DNA of 64,000 bases from the NCBI GenBank assembly GCA_000697475.1, contig JNEU01000851.1, positions 51,096-115,095 on the forward strand, given 5' to 3'. Shown here in pieces: positions 9,092 to 34,064 of the stretch (the stretch's first letter is position 1; the number at the start of each line of letters is the position of its first letter). Position numbers and translations under genes: made by a program. The notes beneath the pieces were generated by a model, which saw nothing but the letters and a program-made list of their open reading frames with translations, did not search any database and had not been told where the DNA came from. This stretch comes from Lichtheimia corymbifera B2541 (Eukaryota > Mucoromycota > Mucoromycetes > Mucorales > Lichtheimiaceae).

Positions 9092-9811
9092 CTAAACTTT
9101 ACAATGAACCGTGGGGTCTTCAATCGAACAAAGTTGCTCGCCGGGGTGAAGCGCACCTTGGGTGCAAGTTTCACGATCGTCGTGGCCATTCTCAGATTCA
9201 CCCAATGTCACTACCAGCCAAAGTTGAAAAAAAAATTCAAGTTGCCAAATACGTGACAACAAAAGTGAGTTAGCAACTGTAGCTCTTCCTCTTACCGACA
9301 ATGTGCGCTGGCTATGTTGATTACATGCTGTGGTGAAGTTCTGCAGCAGTTGTTCCAGAAAGTCTTGCAGCTGTTGTGTTGAAGATGCCAAAGGGTATCC
9401 AAGATATGTCACTGCTGATGGGCTCTGTCGATCATGTGGTGCTGGCATGTCATAGGCCCTCAGTACTTCACACCAATGGTCATGTGTAACGCCGGAAAGA
9501 CTGATGGCTTGAGTCTTATGACGGTTGAATCGAGCATTCGAGGCAAGTTGGTAGCAAGCAACATGAAATAACAAACGTTCGAAGTTCGTTGGATCCTTCA
9601 GGAAAACCATCACATCGTCAGCATATGCCAAAACTTTGATAGGATTGAGCTGTGCAGATGGAGCGGAAGACCAAGGTTGGAAGCCTTGAAAATTGGTGTC
9701 GCCAACAATAGCACGTAAGAATGGTTCCAGAGCCAAATTGAACAATATTGGTGAAAGAGGATCACTGCGATTGAGTGGAATAAAAATGAGAACGAGACAA
9801 TGATAAGTCAA
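9092..9811 (-). pseudogene. Non-LTR (LINE-type) reverse transcriptase fragment
   Basis: The 239-codon minus-strand frame carries the central palm blocks of LINE-like reverse transcriptases: DPLSPILFNLALEPFLRAI, then VLAYADDVMVF with the catalytic A-D-D, and later TYLGYPLAS and LSVRGRATVANSLLLSRIW. The N-terminal fingers, endonuclease and C-terminal domains are missing. The last ~40 codons lie in an unrelated ~110-bp repeat unit, so the element was broken and then fused to the repeat. It cannot be an active element on its own. It lies between the two inverted arms of the repeat island. Confidence 0.85.
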
Positions 9812-10169
9812 GTGAGACTGAAAGATGTCCTTTATTCAATGAAAGTGTTCACTCTTTTATATCTAAATGATTGATCCTGCTATAACCTGATTCTCCCACG
9901 CCTTCACACCATGATTACTAACGATGATGGTATTCTCGATATGCCCATAATCTTACGTACGTGTCTGTGCCAATGTACCTGACAGCCATATAGGATAAGA
10001 TTCATGCGTGGGAGAATGTAGGTGTGACAAACATGAGATGATAGGAGAATTAAATGACAGCTGTGGGAACCAACATATGATGATTGAGCTGTGTCTACGA
10101 CATTCGGGATGGCCAATATCGGCGGCCGCGGTCCGTCCATCTTATGTATGTTCCCGTCCATACATTTGG

Positions 10170-14040: not shown

Positions 14041-17000
14041 ATGCAGCTTATCCCGGTCCAAACTATATCCCAACTTGATCTCGAAACTGTTCACAATCGA
14101 ACCATTCTCTGCACTGCACGCGTCGCATGTCGCCATGGCATCCCCAAGCTCTTTATTGCAGACGACTCCTCGAATATTAAAGCCTTTGCAGTTGCTAATG
14201 ACAACAGTGGCATTTCTCAGGTCAGCACCAGTACAACTCCCCTCACGATCTTGTCTTTACGATTGCTCACTCAACCTCCTCACCAAACCCGCTCTCACAG
14301 CTAGGCGAATGGACATTGCCAACACCAACTGAACAGATCTACGTGTGCCAAACCGAGTGTTGTATGGTATTTGCGCGAACACGCGATGGTGGCGTGTGGC
14401 GGATACGCGTGACCTGCGAGCCATACGAGTAGGTGTCGTGTTGATGGAGCAACCTATGTTATCCTTCTTTACTAATATCTTTACGTAGTCATGTTGCGAA
14501 GCGTCCAAGGATACAAGATTGTGAGCAAATATACAAGCATGTAAGCTATATAAGTGAGAGAGGATCATTCATACATTAATATTGGTTTATATAGCATGAT
14601 TATCTAGTACCGGTACATCCATCTCCAACGGGCTTATTCTACGGGTTGAACGCGGATGGAGCAATATGTCATTGCAAGGAATCGGATCTTGGGATGCCTT
14701 CGGTGGTGGGCATGCATAAAGCACGTTCATGTGTAACAACATCAATCCTCGGTAAGTTTGAGATGGTGAAATTGCTCAAAAGCTACTCTTCCTCACCGCG
14801 TAACAAATAGTTGATCCCACTCAGCTATCAGAATCCTTCTTGAAGCATCTAGGTCTACCAAAGTGAGTGCGACAGATTTCAATTAGACCCAAAACTTACA
14901 AGTTTGTGCAGAGATTGCCTTACATTGCTCTTTGGACATGAGAATGGTGACTTGACAGGCAGCACGATACAAGGACAAGAGATTCAATTTGCAACTTTAC
15001 CTGTGAGTATATGATGATATGTGCCAGATCCATTATCCTCTTAACGCTTTAGCTTAGGAAGAACCCATTTCTGCCATTTATCTTTTACATTTGATCAATG
15101 ATGCGGTTTACGACGCTATGGTTGTGCTTGGGTAAGCTGGGGGAAAAAAGAGGTATCGGTTATGCATGTCATCTCATTTCTCAACATAGGTGTTATGGAA
15201 CAGTCCAGTTATACCTTGAAACCAGTGATGGACGCTTGATCTTTAAGGAATTCCTTATCCCAGCCCCTGTGCTTGCATCTTGCTCGGTTTTTGTAAGTGG
15301 AGGTTATTACGGCGTATGGATATTATACTTATACTGCTATAGGAACGATCCCTATTAGTCAGCCTGAAGAACCAAGTCCATTTTATCGAATTCACTTTTA
15401 CCGGTCAACAAGAACTAGACAACATTGTGCTGAAATCGATTCGGCTGAATACGTTGCAAGATATTACGCATATTCATGACATTCATCACGAGGCTTCAAC
15501 CTACCAGCTATTACTCGTCAAAGACAATTCTCAATTGATACATGCATCATGTGACTTTGGGTAAGCGATCATCACATGTCGTCATTTCTTTTTAACGTGA
15601 GTGCTCACAAAGTGTCAAGGGCAAGAATAGAGGCCAAGCAAGATCCTGAGCTTCTTGAGCAGACGATTTCAAACATCTTGAATGAGCTTTCCGATTATGA
15701 AAAGGCCAAAAAGGAAATGGATAGTCATGTTGACGTGAGCATATGATAGACCAGTGAAGGTTTATGAGTTAACTGAGGAATGCATAGCTTTTAAATGAGA
15801 GACTGATTGCTATGAATCGGATCATCTACGGCTTACAGCGGATCAAGGGACAAAAAACGAGGTTACAGCTCGAGACGGATGATGATTCTTCGCCATTCCA
15901 ATGCGACTTGCAGCCAATTATTGTACCACATTCGAGGCGACTTTTTATGAAATCAGCAGCCTGCTTACGACTGCGTGTTCGTGCATTGGTCCCGATGGAT
16001 TGGTCTCAATGGAGTTGTAAGCCATGCTTGGACCGTTTTACCGTGAGAGAATGCCTTCTAAATGAATGGTTTTATAGTGCACGTCAATATGTGCCATCAA
16101 CGCACATTGCTGCGGCAAGTGACTACACCATGCACCCAGGAGCAAGATTCAGTGGATGGATCCACCTTGACTGTACCTCTGGCAGGACTCACGGATCATC
16201 ACGTGTGGTAAGTACATGCACGCTATTTATTTTACAATGACTCACAGTCATTATTTTTACTTTTAGGGAGCAGGATATTCCTGTGGATATTGCATCTCTT
16301 TGTTTACCGCTTTCAGTATCCATGCACTTATCAACGCATCTTAACCTTTCGGTCCCTCCAATTCACAATGCGCATGAATCATCACAAGCGGACTCTCAAT
16401 CGAATCAGGGTAAAATGGATACATCACGTTCTAAATCGCTAAAATCTAAAAAGGTATTCCACACATAGAGATGACCAAGCAGTTTACGTTTCCTTTGTCA
16501 GATTTTGATTTGGATGACTTGCATTTCATATCGCCATGCACCGATGCTGCGTTCAAGATGCTAAAAAGGTCTGGCATCCCTGGTGCGACTGCTCGTCTTT
16601 GCGAAGAACAAGCTATTCGAAAAACACTTGACAACTGCAATCAATACCCATTAGCACGGCTGGAGGTGAGTGATCATCAAAGCTATGCCATTACCGAATC
16701 GTTAACATTTCCATCTAGGCCCCGTCTTTTGAAAAGCCAACGATGGATAAATACGAGTCAGCATCCTTACGTTTCCTCGTAAAGCCTCGCAATGGTAGCA
16801 CGGTCGATGAAACTTGCAACCGTATTCTAGAGACCTTTTTGAGTGAAGCGCGATCAAGGTATTGCATATGTTTGCGTGTTGTCATCATCAATGCAGCAAT
16901 GCTTATCTCATGCATTAGGAATGAGCTTGACAAGATCATGGATACCCCACAGCAAGCCTTCTTTACTCTTCTATCCTACCCTGAATATCCAGTCAGCTTA

Positions 17001-17408
17001 AGTCTTTCAAGTGGTATGATTATTTGGATTTTTGAAGGGCAAAACACTCATAGGTCAAAATAGATTCTTCACCGCCGATATCCGTCACGATCCACATCCA
17101 TTGTCTGAACCCGGTTGTCATGCTCAAGGTCGAATCATCGTTATTGGCCCGATCTCGTGAATTTATGGTTGACAACGAGGATACAGGTAAAAAGGGACAT
17201 GATAAATCTCAGAGACGTCTTATTAAGTATCCTTTTAGATGCCCTACTCGATCGAGCCCAACACGCTTTCGTGATAGCAGCCCAGGATCTCGAAGAAAAA
17301 TTCCGTGTCGATTATCCTCAGCATGAATTCTGGAACTCGCTTAAAACGACAATGATACAGCTACGCAAGATATATAATAATGCTATCCTTGGAACGCTTT
17401 GCTTGTAA
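14041..17408 (+). CDS. Putative FAAP100 (Fanconi anaemia core-complex subunit) homologue
   Basis: Eighteen exons: 14041-14220, 14301-14428, 14489-14520, 14608-14751, 14811-14862, 14912-15002, 15058-15131, 15190-15292, 15343-15560, 15620-15734, 15788-16016, 16078-16207, 16267-16409, 16469-16665, 16719-16858, 16919-17013, 17064-17186, 17239-17408; 787 residues. FAAP100 with FANCB and FANCL forms the catalytic module that monoubiquitinates FANCD2-FANCI at DNA crosslinks; human FAAP100 is 881 residues. From memory of the family, colinear matches are: EEPISAIYLLHL with DAMVVLG (~210-234) to 'EEPV..' and 'DCLVAFG'; EFLIPAPVLASCSVF (~255-268) to 'EYCLPGPVLCAACG'; a coiled coil at ~345-400; VMLKVESSLLARSREF (~707-722) to 'VEIQVESSSLADICRAH'; and a helical C-terminus ending in a short TLCL. 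The N-terminal third would be the beta-propeller. FANCB shares the architecture and is the main alternative. The start is chosen at the first good Met; an in-frame upstream extension exists. Confidence 0.55.
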
Positions 17409-18398: not shown

Positions 18399-21300
18399 TT
18401 ACTCTTGGTAGGGTTCAAGCTAAGAGAAAAACAAAGCATGTTAACCATGGTATCAATATAAGAGTAGTACTACATACCATCAATGAAAGTGTCTTGCTCG
18501 AATTAGCGTCTTGATCACGGTAAATGCCGACCAAACTTTCTGCCTTTTCGTATAGCGTGTTTTTCAGCGAAATGACAATGAACTGGAAGTCCTCACTTGC
18601 ATGCTCTCTAATGTAAGAAGCGACGGTGACAACATTGGTATTGTCGAGAGCAGCATCCACCTCATCCAAGACGAAAAAGGGTGATGGTTGGTAACTAAAA
18701 GATAAAGCCCACATGATTAGCCCCTTTTCCCTCCTGATGCACTAGATCCAGCGTTACCTGTGAATGGCAAATAATAAAGCCAAAGCGGCAATACTCTTTT
18801 CACCACCTGAAAGCTGATCCATATCTCGGAATTTCTTCATGGGAGGCATTGCATGGTATCGAATGCCTTCAAGGTAAGGCTCTTCCGAATCATCAAGACT
18901 GAGATAAGCTGTACCACCGTGAGGGAAGGTCTCACTTGTGGTAAGCGCCTTGTATACACGATCGATCCTTCCTGAAATGTGGCTATAAGCATCATAGAAT
19001 AGCTTATAACTAAAGAAGAGATATTAGCGTTGTTGTCATTGATACAATAAAAGAGGAGAAAGCTTTACCGCTTTTGTTTGACATTGCTGAATTCTTGTTT
19101 TGCTCGCTTGGCGTCTCTTCTTGCATCATCGAATTGATCCTCTGCTTCCTTCAGTCGCTGTTCAACGCCTTCCAAACGATCAATAGCCTTCATGTTGGGT
19201 GCCATTTCATCAATCTCCTCAGCCCGACGCTTAAGCTCATCCTTGAATTCCCCATCACGAGCAGAGCTGCCATTCTCCTTCAGGTTCTCATCAAGCGAAT
19301 CATAATTGACTTCAACCATCCAGTCAGTGGATCGTATAGAGAGTTGCGATGGTGGCTCATCATCCACATCCATGGCACTCGAAGATTGTGTCTACAATAG
19401 GCCACTGTTAAAAAATACATTCCAATAGGGTGTGTAGTATTATACGTACGCTGGTACCAAGGCTGCTACTGCCCAAGTTATCATCCATGATGACATCGTC
19501 CATGCTTCCTCGTAAAAGTGGCAATTCAATATCCTCCAATTTGCATTTACGGAAAATAGCCACTCGTTCAGCATGCACCTTTTCCATCTCGGTCTCCACT
19601 TGGGACATCTCCTTCAAGTAACTTTGAACGTCTCGACCCTTGGCTTCCAATTTGGCACGCAGCTGATCAACGGCTTCTTGCTTTTCATCCTCCAAGACTG
19701 TTTGCTCTTGTAGCTCTGCGTTGGATGTTGCAAGGTCTTCATTCATTTGTCGCATACGTTCGGTAGCTTGGCTGATTTGGGTTTGTAGATCCGCCAACGT
19801 CTTTGTATCCTCATTGTACATCGTTTCCAGCTTTGAAAGACGTTCTGCTAGCTCTGATAACTGTCCTCGCTCAAATGATAGCTGTGTCTCCAATCTGGAA
19901 CGCTGAGCTGCGAATTGTGCTCGTTGCTCGATCACCTCTTCAGGAATACCATAGCGCATGGATTCATATTCTCGAATGTTGGAGACACCAATGCGGCCGC
20001 AAAACTCGGCAAATATCTCATCTTCAATGGTGGCAAATGCTGATTTCATCTCTTCAATCGATGCTGCTAATGAATCCAATTTCGCCTTGGCCTAATATCA
20101 TATCCCATTTAGCATTCGTGACAATTTACTGCACCGAGGTTTCCCTTACCTGATCATAGGGTGCTTGGGCGCTGACCAATTGTTCTTCCACATAACGCAT
20201 CTCGTTGCGCACATCCTGTAACTTTTGCTCCGCAGTGGTCTATTACATCATAGGTGAATAACGTGCTTATTGGTTTGCAGTAGAAGGGCAATACTTACAA
20301 TTTCTTCCCGAAGGACACTGAGTTGACCTTCAAGCTCGGCACAGTCATTCTTTGCGGCTTCTTCAGCACTGCCCATTCTTCTTTGCTTGTTGAGGTCGTT
20401 CAATTCACCAAGAAGCTTATCTCGTGTGCGAGTCAAGCCTACCGATTGATCCTTTTTAGTTACCTGGTCCCACACATTCCAATGCAACAAAAACCAACCT
20501 TCGATATCACTTTCTTGCCAACGTGTTGCGGCCTGATTCGTACTATGACCACCAGTAATAAGACCACTTCGATGAATCACTGTGCCATCCACAGTGACAG
20601 CTATATAACACCGGTGAGTTAGTTACATGTTGTCATTGATGAGATGCCTTTCTGCTCACCCTTGACGTCCTCGTTTTTCTCATAGCAGATTTGCTTTGCG
20701 ATTTGGACAGTATCACATACGATGGTGCTACCACAGGCATATTGGAGAACAGTCTCGAACTTTTTGTCACTCTTCACCACATCAACAGCAAGACGAGCAC
20801 CACGGGTATAGTTTCTGAAACGATCATTGATCATAGGCACTTGAATCGAATTGAGCGGAAGGAAGGTGGCAGTACCAACACGTTGATCACGCATATACTA
20901 ATATCACGACCATTAATAGGCATGCCCAATCACAAAAGAAGCATAGCAATTTACCTGGATACATTCAATGGCCGTTCGCTGATCCTCGACTACAATGGAA
21001 TCCATGTTGCGACCAAGCACAGTAGCAACAGCAACATCATATCTTCTTTGAGTAGGACGGCAAAGATCAACAAGCTTTCCATGAACGCCTAATAATCACA
21101 CGTGTTGGTTGAGCCATATCCTAGAGGATATATTCATGCGTCGTAATACCTGGGAAGATTTGCTTCATCATATTCAAGCATTCTTTGAACCGTGTTTCTT
21201 TCTCAGATTCCCGCTGTTCTGCTTTGGCTTGCATCAATCGGTTGAGCGTCTCTTGAAGCTTCTCATTCAACTGGATTTCACGTTGACTAAACATAGCGGT

Positions 21301-23177
21301 GAATAAATGATCGTTCCCCCCATCCCTTGCTGCAAAACTTACTGGGTAGTCTTTCGTTCCTCTTCCAATGCAACCAAATCCTTTTTACGACTCTTGAGCT
21401 GCTTGTCCAATCCCTCAGCTTCGTCAACAAGCGCTTGACCATCCAATACTAATTGACGCTCGTCTTCCAAAAGCTGCGACTTTCTGACTTGGAATTCCTC
21501 GGTTTTGGATGTGATGCGTTTGACGTTTTCCAACTCCATCTTGTGTTGACGTTGCAATTGCTCAAGTTGCTGCTCCTCAGTAACAGCGCGAATGCTGACT
21601 TGTTGTTTACTATACACACACACAAATGTTGTCAGATGAAGGTGTTCCCCTTTTCCCCCTAAATTCCGACCTTTCTACTTACAGTTGTTCATATTGCTCC
21701 ACTTGCTCAGCGGTTAAAACAGGGCCTTTGACCAAACCACTCTCAGGAAGAGAAGCTAATAATGAAGGAATGTCAGTCCACTATAAGCGAACCTGCATGA
21801 ATTTAATATGTACCTTCGTATTCTTCTGAAGACTTGTTCAACTTGACAAGGCTTTGTTCGAGATTTGCCACTTCCTGTGCCTGTTTCATACTAAGTATAT
21901 ACGTCAATGACGATAAATCCTGCAAGCTTACCTGTTGGTCATGCTCATGCTTGATGCGGTCTCCATTTTGCTTAGTTTGCTCAAGACGCTTTTCAAGGTG
22001 GCTGACTTGTTCTTGAATGCTGATCAAATTAGGACGCTAGATGGATATGCATACTCAATATCCTGGATCCCCATAATATATGTATTGCCTTGTACTACTT
22101 ACATGCTCTTCCAATTCCTTTTTCAACTTTTTAATTTGTAATTCTCTCCGAGTCTTTTCACGGTGGATCAAAGCCTGCTCCTTGCGTGTTGCCTTAAATT
22201 GTTCCTCCAATCGCAACTAGATCATGTGCTTTGTATGAGCACCTTGTATCACCATTTCATGTATATATGTCTACCTGATCCCCAGTCGCACCGTCAGTAT
22301 CGATCTTTCGATTGCTTGCTTGCTTTTCCAATTCTTGTGATCGTTGCTCAATATGATAAAGCTTCCACAAGAGATACTTGACAGCCACTTGACGACGTTC
22401 ACGCACCAGACTCTCAAACTTTTCAGCTTCCTGCTTTTGCTCCTTGTACTGCTTGACTTCGCTAGTGACACCACGTTTCTTGTTGAAGGCGTGAGCGCTG
22501 TCTTCGATAGCACGATCCTGAATCTTTTTCAATCGATCATATTCCTCCTTGTATTCCCAAGATCTTTCATTACAATGTCAGTGACACACTACTCGACAAA
22601 GGAAAATCAAGCATCCCTTACCCACTGATTTGTTCAATCAATTTTGTAAGATCCTTGGCGCTTTGACTGGCTACCGACTCCACGTCGCCTTGAAACACCA
22701 AAAAGTTCTTGGCCTTGATGAGGATGTTTTCCTTTTGCAATGCTGTATTGTACTCGGCAAAGGTGACCTGACGATCATTGATGCGATATTCGGATTGCCC
22801 AGAGTGTTGGACCGTACGCTTGAAACGGATCTCTTGCCCACGTGCGTTCTCGTATACAAGGACAACATGGGCTCGTCTTGCTGCCATAGCACGTGAATCC
22901 GTTTGCATAGCCGTGGGACGATAAATCATATCCTTCAAGCTTTGAGATCGTAAGTGCTGCGAATTGACACCGAGAACAAACGAGATGGCATCCATAAGAT
23001 TCGATTTGCCTATGCCACATGGGAAGTGTGTGTCAGAGAACGAACGAGAAGCAAGTATTGTTGTTTACCTGATCCATTGGGACCAATGACACTCGTGAAC
23101 TTGTGGAAAGGACCAATGACCTGGTGGCCTTTGTATGATTTGAAATTGTCGACTTCCAGGCGTACTAGCTTTCCCAT
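18399..23177 (-). CDS. SMC1: Cohesin subunit SMC1
   Basis: Nineteen exons (23177-23069, 23009-22622, 22563-22275, 22216-22103, 22036-21932, 21880-21814, 21755-21683, 21609-21343, 21286-21150, 21088-20955, 20897-20660, 20600-20499, 20438-20299, 20239-20150, 20091-19450, 19391-19069, 19009-18758, 18694-18478, 18419-18399) give 1235 residues; human SMC1A has 1233. ATPase of the cohesin ring, which holds sister chromatids together and shapes chromatin in the nucleus. Visible: N-terminal [18 protein letters not shown], Walker A GPNGSGKS split by intron 1, two long coiled coils, a hinge around [36 protein letters not shown], the ABC signature LSGGEKS and Walker [13 protein letters not shown]. The last exon is only 21 bases (LEPYQE and stop). 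All key motifs are intact. Confidence 0.95.
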
Positions 23178-23220
23178 GGCACACACGTCGTCGATATCAG
23201 GAACTGCGGAGGAGAAGGAA

Positions 23221-23252
23221 ACGCGTTGACAACGCGAGCCGAAAATCGCGTT
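23221..23252. promoter_or_regulatory. MCB-like cluster upstream of SMC1
   Basis: A palindromic ACGCGT (23221-23226) with two further CGCG cores at about 23232-23236 and 23247-23250, within 45-75 bases of the SMC1 start codon. In yeasts ACGCGT (MluI cell-cycle box) is bound by MBF and drives G1/S genes, cohesin among them. Function here is inferred from position and motif. Confidence 0.5.
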
Positions 23253-23515
23253 CATTTGCTCCATTAGCGGTATCAGAAAAAGTCCATTTGACCCTCTTGC
23301 TGGCTGCCCACATTCGTCCTCTCTGCCCTCCACTGACATATGTACATGTATCTCCCTATTACAATATGTAAACATGATGATTCTTTTATTCGAGATAAAG
23401 ATATTTTGACAACACAAATGATTGATTGCAAGATCGAGCTAAAATCACGTGACATGGGAGGCATAAAAATCTTCGCTCGATCAATTTATGCAGGCTTCTT
23501 TCCACTACACCGCCA

Positions 23516-32025: not shown

Positions 32026-34064
32026 ATGCGGTTTTTGATTCTATTCCTGCTACTTGCATCCGCGTTAGGTAAGCATGACTGGAATAATATTATTACCGCC
32101 ATCCCTTTCCCCCCCTTTATTTTACCAGTTTAGCGGAAGGTTTCTTTTTTCATTTAACCTTGCCACACGCTTTTTTCGTATGCAATTGCATTAGTGTATG
32201 CATCACCGGATACTTCCGCACCCCATCCCGTTACATACCAAGTTGTAATCAATACACCGGATCGTGAATCGGAAATTGTAGGTGTAGCTGTGGGTCAGGA
32301 GGTATATGAATTGGCACCCGATCCTACGGTTCCCATGCTGTATACTGGCATTGGCCCATCCTCCAGCACCTATCGATATGTCATTCTGGATAAAAATGAC
32401 AACAGCATCGTGCATTTTGAACCATTCGAAAGACCTGCTATAGAACATGCCAACAGCACATTTTACGAGACATATGGCCGACCATGGAACAAGTTGGATC
32501 TGCCAGAACTTCCACAATTATACAAGTTTGAACCAAAAGACCCTGCCGCATCTCCGCTTTATGAAGATGGAACCATCATCACGCTGCATTTTAATGTTGA
32601 TGAAGAGCAAACGCAGAGTATGCATGAAAACAAATATGACAAAAAATCCGCCAAGGTGAATGGTACCATGACCTACATATCGTAAGGGACACATCCAACA
32701 GCCAGGGTCCTTTTTTTCTCACTCACATGATACTTTTAGCTATAATAACGTACAGCAATTCCATAATGTGGAGCTCAAGGTGGGTGGTCATTCAAGCAGA
32801 CGTTGGGCAAAAGTGCCATACAAGATCAAGATCCCACACAAGAGTGCACCTGAGGGTCTTTATAGACGTTGGTCATTCAAGCTAAGATCGGAAGCAACCG
32901 ATCCAACAATGATGCGTGAAATGCTCTACAATGATTTGCTAAAGTCCACTGGTATTCTGGCTGCACGTGGTGTCTATGCTCGGTAAGTAGTGGTAGTAGT
33001 ATCCCAACCCATGATTGCATATCATCTCATGAAAAACCAATAGCATGTATATCAATAATCGTCCAGCTGGTCTCTTTTTGTTAGTGGATGATAGTGGATC
33101 CACGAGGTGAGTCTTAATAGCAATGCAACAACGATGACATGGATGCCAACATGTATGTAGCTTTATCAAGGAAACCATTCATCAAGGTGAAAGCAATGTC
33201 ACTCTGGGTGATCTTATTCAAGGAGATGCAGGCAAAGGCGCTTATGCTGCCAACCTCGGATTTATTGGCGATACTGCCGAAGCTTATGATGACAAGGTGT
33301 ACAAGGTCAAAAAGGCGAAATCACCCGAGCAAAAGGAAGCAGCCATGCAGCCCTTGATTGAATTCATGCAATTTATTGACAACTATGATCCCGAGGATGC
33401 TCCAGAGAATGAAGCCATGTTACTCGAACAATGGAAGCCTTATATTGATGCCAAGCAATTTATCCGACAAATGGCTCTGGAATGGATTGGCGGTAATTGG
33501 GATGCTGTGCAGTACTCAGGCAACAATTATGCCATGTATCATCATCCCACCACCGGCCAATATATAACCATCCCCATGGATTTCGATTATACCTTTGGCA
33601 ATGGGCTGGAAGAAGATCAGCGTAATCTCATGACAGGCGAGTGGCCAGAATTCACAGCAGGTCGCAAGACACATTCCTTCTTGTGGGAACGTATCAAAGC
33701 CATTCCTCAATTTGTCAAAATGTACCAGGATACATTACGTGACATTAATACACATGTATCCAATCCTCAAACCATGTTCAAGCGCATTGATGGTTTGGCT
33801 TACATGTTGCAAAGAGACGTTGTATGGGATCGATCGTTGGAACGCTTTAGCGAAGGCTTAACACGACCATGGTCAGCTGAGGATTTCCTTGGATCATTGG
33901 AACATGGCTCAGGACAACAAGACGAGCAAATTGGTCTCAAAGAATGGATCAGTGGCAAGAGCGAAAGTATTATGAATATGCAAGATCTCTCCCCCTCCGG
34001 TCCTGATGGTGGCCTTGGTGTAGGCTTTTACCCTTTCAAAGAAGAAGATCTCCAAAGAGCATAA
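32026..34064 (+). CDS. CotH-family spore-coat/kinase-fold protein
   Basis: Five exons (32026-32068, 32195-32681, 32740-32982, 33044-33106, 33161-34064), 579 residues. The signal peptide MRFLILFLLLASALVYA is split by intron 1. The CotH domain is evident: KVGGHSSRRWAKVPYKIKI, WSFKLRSEATDPTMMREML, then FLLVDD, QMALEWIGGNWDAVQYSGNN and PMDFDYTFGNG, which supply the kinase-like Lys, Asn and Asp-x-Asp positions. CotH proteins occur in bacterial spores and, expanded, in Mucorales, where some members sit on the spore surface and act as host ligands. This copy ends in a charged tail (KEEDLQRA) with no hydrophobic GPI signal, so it is more likely secreted or a plain kinase-type member. Which CotH subgroup it belongs to cannot be told by eye. 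Confidence 0.9.

Follow-up and report, generated by a model that had tools for sequence, protein, structure and literature searches.

A divergent FAAP100-like protein encoded in the genome of the fungus Lichtheimia corymbifera

The gene described here lies on contig JNEU01000851.1 of Lichtheimia corymbifera B2541, in a stretch of 64,000 nt (contig positions 51,096-115,095, within a 35-Mb genome) that we call the window, and positions are those of the whole window unless another contig is named. A single gene on the + strand, running from an ATG at 14041 to a TAA that ends at 17408, encodes a protein resembling FAAP100, a scaffold protein of DNA crosslink repair and a member of the human FANCB-FANCL-FAAP100 subcomplex. 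Splicing it independently at GT...AG introns, each 49-92 bases long, yielded an uninterrupted frame of 18 exons and 787 residues, the same product as in the first-pass annotation of this DNA. The orthologous protein of L. ornata (798 aa) has 11 residues, EMTKQFTFPLS, at the start of exon 14 that are absent from this model. With the exon 14 acceptor at 16468, the exon spans 16469-16665 rather than 16502-16665 and the 11 residues are regained; an exon-by-exon search of the genome gave a match at 16465-16680 spanning residues 557-628 of the L. ornata protein. The exon number and the open frame of the earlier model were thus retained, and its length was corrected to 798 residues. The gene and its exons are as follows.

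14041-17408, + strand: FAAP100-like gene, 18 exons, 798 aa as corrected (splicing and L. ornata homologue)
14041-14220, 14301-14428, 14489-14540, 14595-14751, 14811-14862, 14912-15002, + strand: exons 1-6
15058-15131, 15190-15292, 15343-15560, 15620-15734, 15788-16016, 16078-16207, + strand: exons 7-12
16267-16409, 16469-16665, 16719-16858, 16919-17013, 17064-17186, 17239-17408, + strand: exons 13-18
16469-16501, + strand: 33 bases left out of the earlier model, encoding the 11 extra residues (L. ornata protein and genome match)

A database search returned four relatives from the Mucorales, all named hypothetical, in L. ornata (92% identity at 100% query coverage), L. hyalospora, L. ramosa and Fennellomyces sp. 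(40% identity). Repeating the search with the fungal alignment returned the same four proteins only and did not reach other fungi, so that the depth of the alignment is limited. No second copy of the gene was seen in the whole-genome search, where 16 of 16 exon-by-exon matches of the L. ornata protein fell at this locus. The stretch from 14041 to 17408 is a genuine gene, conserved across two Mucorales genera. The deposited models from L. hyalospora, L. ramosa and Fennellomyces are without the N-terminal part (the first two are shorter), and the Fennellomyces model also diverges C-terminally; these truncations and divergences are probably errors of gene prediction, and faulty models of this kind could conceal a FAAP100-like family from proteome-based surveys. 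A short motif resembling a nuclear-localisation signal, KRPR, is found at residues 107-110 (14499-14510, + strand) and is kept in L. ornata, being weak evidence when taken alone.

The resemblance to FAAP100 was examined by profile-profile comparison. The fungal profile was built from the four relatives, or from five members once the window protein was added, and the FAAP100 profile from 24 amniote proteins, chosen as a spread from the 120 listed of 206 matches to human FAAP100; the same spread supplied 24 rows of a 28-row alignment. Comparison of the four fungal proteins with the 24 FAAP100 proteins by hhalign gave P=2.6e-4 and a colinear alignment of residues 218-535 with FAAP100 276-606, in which EEPISAI is set against EEPVIFI and PAPVLAS against PGPVLCA. 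With the window protein included the score was 43.2, compared with maxima of 29.4 in 150 column shuffles and 33.7 in 150 block shuffles (0 of 300 reaching the observed score) and with 19.4 for the reversed alignment. None of 51 window reading frames used as decoys reached P 0.004, these being shorter single sequences and not a matched control. Against one FAAP100 sequence the fungal profile gave P=0.001, and fungal-FAAP100 identity in the joint alignment was 16-20%.

Two AlphaFold2 (AF2) models were made, one from the fungal sequences alone (fungal-only) and one with FAAP100 rows added, the latter being circular for the fit to FAAP100. The regions of the predicted protein are listed below.

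14101-15555, + strand: predicted beta-propeller, residues about 21-350 (the fungal-only AF2 model has strands at 21-115 and 224-350)
14994-15402, + strand: strongest FAAP100 match, residues 218-299, EEPISAIYLL ... VVLGCYG ... FLIPAPVLASCSV (hhalign P 3e-5 for 234-299; the alignment starts at 218, equivalent to FAAP100 276)
15645-15874, + strand: predicted long helix or coiled coil, residues 361-419 (continuous helix in both AF2 models)
16010-16015, + strand: Trp465-Ser466, aligned with FAAP100 Trp541-Thr542 (hhalign alignment)
16119-16333, + strand: second match, residues 481-532, in the FAAP100 beta-sandwich region (hhalign P 0.0042 against FAAP100 548-603)
16758-17399, + strand: residues about 637-796, predicted as an alpha/beta region with three helices at the C-terminus; VVMLKVESSLLARSRE lies here (secondary structure in both AF2 models)

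The motif strings quoted in the first-pass annotation are present in the protein, and its claim of colinear FAAP100 matches along the whole length held for part of that length. When the alignment was cut into seven segments, the diagonal cell was top-scoring in 5 of 7 rows, the last two rows not being best on the diagonal. Two of the seven pairs were convincing, residues 234-299 against FAAP100 305-374 (P 3e-5) and 481-532 against 548-603 (P 0.004); the remaining five were weak (P 0.04 to 0.2). Among the latter, the helix at 361-419 gave P 0.037, and region 637-796, by its sequence match alone, gave P 0.13 and ranked third by score in its row. The FAAP100 coiled coil occupies the same place in the domain order as the fungal long helix (PMC7467173). 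All five fungal proteins have Trp465, and the residue aligned with T542 varies, being S, S, N and Y in the four relatives; in human FAAP100, the disease variant T542P breaks up the subcomplex with FANCB and FANCL and leaves FANCD2 without monoubiquitination (PMC12126235). Because the register of the joint MAFFT alignment differs from the by-eye matches, we make no residue claims for the N- and C-terminal motifs.

With the fungal-only model, the top PDB match in Foldseek by E-value was human FAAP100 (7kzp chain P) at E=3.1e-4, the sole match below 0.001. In VIA, FAAP100 was matched over residues 165-736 with the fungal-only model and 165-745 with FAAP100 rows added, whereas the other 49 listed rows all ended at or before residue 352. 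Along the chain, the secondary structure predicted in the fungal-only model, which has a predicted local distance difference test score (pLDDT) of 37, runs from a propeller through a long helix, a mixed region and an alpha/beta region to three helices at the C-terminus, with no clear beta-sandwich. With FAAP100 rows added, pLDDT rose to 51, with blocks in 171-310 at 68-86; the fit to FAAP100 improved and the published domain order became partly visible, both circular for this model.

Next, partners of FAAP100 were sought in the same genome, and the three that the first-pass annotation had proposed looking for alongside FANCB, namely FANCL, FANCD2 and FANCI, were all located. A FANCL profile search placed UBC-like domain 3 and the RING domain on contig C212, where splicing gave a complete five-exon gene of 396 aa (C212:135951-137367, minus strand). 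In the spliced protein, FANCL_d1 (the ELF domain) scored 40.2 bits against a cut-off of 23.8, d3 and RING were above their Pfam cut-offs, and d2 was just below. The ELF domain of FANCL is the part gripped by the scaffold. FANCD2 was represented on contig C372 by nine pieces over profile positions 172-1405, eight of them above cut-off. One FANCD2 exon (C372:85812-85988, or 1501-1677 of the extracted locus) reads VIRKQLS, identical to the human sequence around lysine 561, a position obtained by counting along the 1451-residue chain and a residue that we take to be the ubiquitinated lysine. FANCI was represented by two S4-domain pieces on contig C335.

Taken together, the protein is probably a remote, divergent fungal homologue of FAAP100, and we put at roughly 0.7 the probability that it is such a homologue and also serves a fungal FANCL ligase as its scaffold subunit. 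We consider the homology supported because a profile-profile comparison with controls and an unbiased PDB fold search, topped by human FAAP100, both point to it, the signals being remote and the model of low confidence. The FAAP100-like identity proposed in the first-pass annotation is upheld in part, by a profile score beyond the shuffles and by the leading Foldseek match, and tempered by these same qualities of the signals and by the failure to reach PF15146. Because the protein falls short of the PF15146 cut-off, we call it FAAP100-like, a divergent variant, and do not file it as a member of the family.

Several results weigh against this interpretation. The probability assigned by hhalign itself was just 42%, or 39.5% with the window protein added, and single-sequence comparisons were weak for the five fungal proteins (P 0.1, 0.022, 0.021, 0.18 and 0.004). 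In a cut into nine overlapping segments, three were off the diagonal against whole FAAP100, and the row of segment 481-532 also has a close off-diagonal cell (P 0.01). Shared invariant columns in the joint MAFFT alignment numbered 31 compared with 21.5 +/- 3.9 in 24 shuffles, one of which reached 31, a marginal excess that we do not rely on. A Pfam search of the window protein returned 0 families, the five fungal members together hit 9 families of which none was PF15146, and PDB sequence searches, both single-sequence and profile, gave chance matches only. On the structural side, the fungal-only model was poor (pLDDT 37, predicted template modelling score 0.25), the Foldseek template modelling score for FAAP100 was 0.12, and the Foldseek lead was narrow, the runner-up being an Elongator propeller at E 1.4e-3. 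The Foldseek probability for FAAP100 (0.95) was below those of a DDB1 complex and a nuclear-pore chain (rows 5 and 7, 1.00 and 0.99), and with the fungal-only model the VIA Z for FAAP100 was tied with plain propellers (9.8, 9.7). A search of the genome with human FANCB returned nothing, a weak search with no positive control at such distance; on this point the FANCB-FAAP100-FANCL module put forward in the first-pass annotation is left without its FANCB homologue. Models of FANCA, FANCE and FANCM-MHF had no match in a six-frame genome search, which can miss split exons; this silence means little because the six-frame search with FANCL_d1 was also silent, though FANCL_d1 is present once FANCL is spliced.

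The PF15146 result has a bearing of its own. All 3 of the amniote FAAP100 proteins used as positive controls matched the model, at 593-695 bits. PF15146 (FANCAA) is a model of the C-terminal half alone, beginning at residue 450 of FAAP100, and the miss arises in part because the strongest fungal-FAAP100 similarity precedes the region covered. A six-frame genome search with PF15146 found nothing and is uninformative, the spliced fungal protein itself being below the model. In a database search with human FAAP100, the species-named matches among the best 120 of 206 were all amniote, with no fungus, no intermediate sequence and no reciprocal match among them.

A rival explanation is an unrelated fungal protein with a propeller and a coiled coil, akin for instance to nucleoporins, Elongator, DDB1 or UTP proteins, whose resemblance to FAAP100 would reflect common architecture. 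Propellers of the Elongator, DDB1, nuclear-pore and UTP kinds make up the rest of the fold-search rankings below FAAP100, two of the matches exceed FAAP100 in Foldseek probability, two propellers tie with it by Z, and the protein is recognised by none of the curated family models. We nevertheless consider this explanation unlikely: the FAAP100 match in VIA extends to residue 736 or 745, far past the end of every other listed row, FAAP100 is the only Foldseek match below 0.001, and the profile match exceeds all 300 shuffles and keeps its colinearity when cut into segments. The match is not driven by coiled-coil bias, since its strongest segment lies at the end of the propeller. The first-pass annotation had named in advance, as outcomes that would speak against it, an unrelated propeller clearly better than FAAP100 or a genome without FANCL and FANCD2; no such propeller was found in Foldseek or in VIA, where there were the two ties by Z, and FANCL, FANCD2 and FANCI are all in the genome.

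A homologue of FANCB, or of a common ancestor of FANCB and FAAP100, is a highly improbable identity for the protein. The fungal profile gave P=0.73 against single human FANCB, compared with P=0.001 against a single FAAP100, and chain 7kzp_B was outside the best 50 Foldseek rows while 7kzp_P was first with the fungal-only model; the sequence test is blunt, as the FAAP100 alignment itself is without signal against FANCB (P 0.52). Quite unlikely, in our judgement, is a genuine homologue of FAAP100 that has left crosslink repair and has another scaffold role in fungi. Function is unreadable from sequence, and the genome search with human FANCB came back empty; set against this, the same genome retains the FANCL ELF domain and the FANCD2 ubiquitination-site motif, and the protein is conserved among its relatives.

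If the protein is indeed a FAAP100 homologue serving the FANCL ligase, it would hold FANCL through the ELF domain and orient it on FANCD2-FANCI. FANCL would thereby be stabilised and stimulated as an E3 ligase and would monoubiquitinate FANCD2 (and FANCI) at DNA interstrand crosslinks, giving the protein a presumed role in crosslink repair, possibly with a FANCB-like partner. The gene may have been inherited vertically from the animal-fungal ancestor; a loss of the module in Dikarya, as put forward in the first-pass annotation, finds no support in these results. In the human complex, an intermolecular FANCB-FAAP100 coiled coil joins the lobes, with FANCL placed alongside the propellers of these two proteins (PMC7467173). 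As a conjecture to which we assign little probability, a FAAP100-FANCL scaffolded ligase could predate the split of fungi and animals, the Mucorales keeping a single-scaffold form that pairs with itself through the coiled coil and FANCB being a later duplicate.

Earlier work bears on these proposals. From a survey of 183 fungal proteomes, Barua and others (2024, PMC11061109) proposed a minimal fungal Fanconi pathway; the main text mentions FAAP100 twice, in Table 1 and in the introduction. Their abstract reports 5 of 8 core proteins in fungi, with C, F and G missing, and by subtraction the authors appear to credit some fungi with FANCB, weighing against a FANCB-free fungal ligase. The 2025 disease paper (PMC12126235) describes FAAP100 as an orphan with recognisable homologues in vertebrates only, suggests an origin by sequence shuffling, and notes FANCAA/FAAP100-like fragments in a few invertebrate, plant and prokaryote proteins. 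The restriction to vertebrates is disputed in print, because, according to PMC11061109, sponges have proteins of the core complex and a pathway that is relatively complete. A fungal FAAP100 does not appear in the portions covered of PMC10085685, PMC4132730 and PMC2730050, and literature searches found no report of one, with supplements, figures, subscription papers and preprints outside their scope. If the assignment is true, the origin of FAAP100 would be placed earlier than the animal-fungal split and FAAP100 would be no vertebrate orphan, the minimal fungal pathway would probably have a scaffolded ligase and not FANCL alone, and Mucorales would offer a small, genetically tractable system in which to ask why FANCL needs a scaffold.

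Other genes in the window were identified by eye.

9092-9835, minus strand: fragment of a reverse transcriptase of the LINE type, with SDPLSPILFNLALEPFL ... AYADDVMVFL
18415-23438, minus strand: SMC1 gene (cohesin ATPase ends), tail to tail with the FAAP100-like gene and about 1 kb apart from it
32158-34064, + strand: spore-coat CotH-like gene

With respect to known systems, the fungal protein shares with human FAAP100 (7kzp chain P, with PF15146 in the C-terminal half) the colinear profile match and a comparable length (798 versus 881 residues), its low-confidence model suggests the published domain order (PMC7467173) apart from a clear beta-sandwich and has FAAP100 as top PDB fold match by E-value, and it differs from FAAP100 in being below PF15146 detection, in an identity of 16-20%, in the non-conserved T542 position and in the FANCB partner, which was not found with the human protein. 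FANCB (7kzp chain B) has the same published domain order as FAAP100 (PMC7467173), but lacks sequence signal with the fungal protein and a place among its leading Foldseek rows. WD40 propellers such as Utp21, DDB1 and those of the nuclear pore and Elongator share the propeller fold at fungal residues about 160-350, and differ in that no listed VIA row for them reaches beyond residue 352. The minimal fungal Fanconi pathway differs in that the core proteins named are FANCL and FANCJ, with no fungal FAAP100 in the text of PMC11061109 (Figure 2 and supplements lying outside the scope), and agrees in that FANCL, FANCD2 and FANCI are reported together in early-diverging fungi, as they are found together in L. 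corymbifera.
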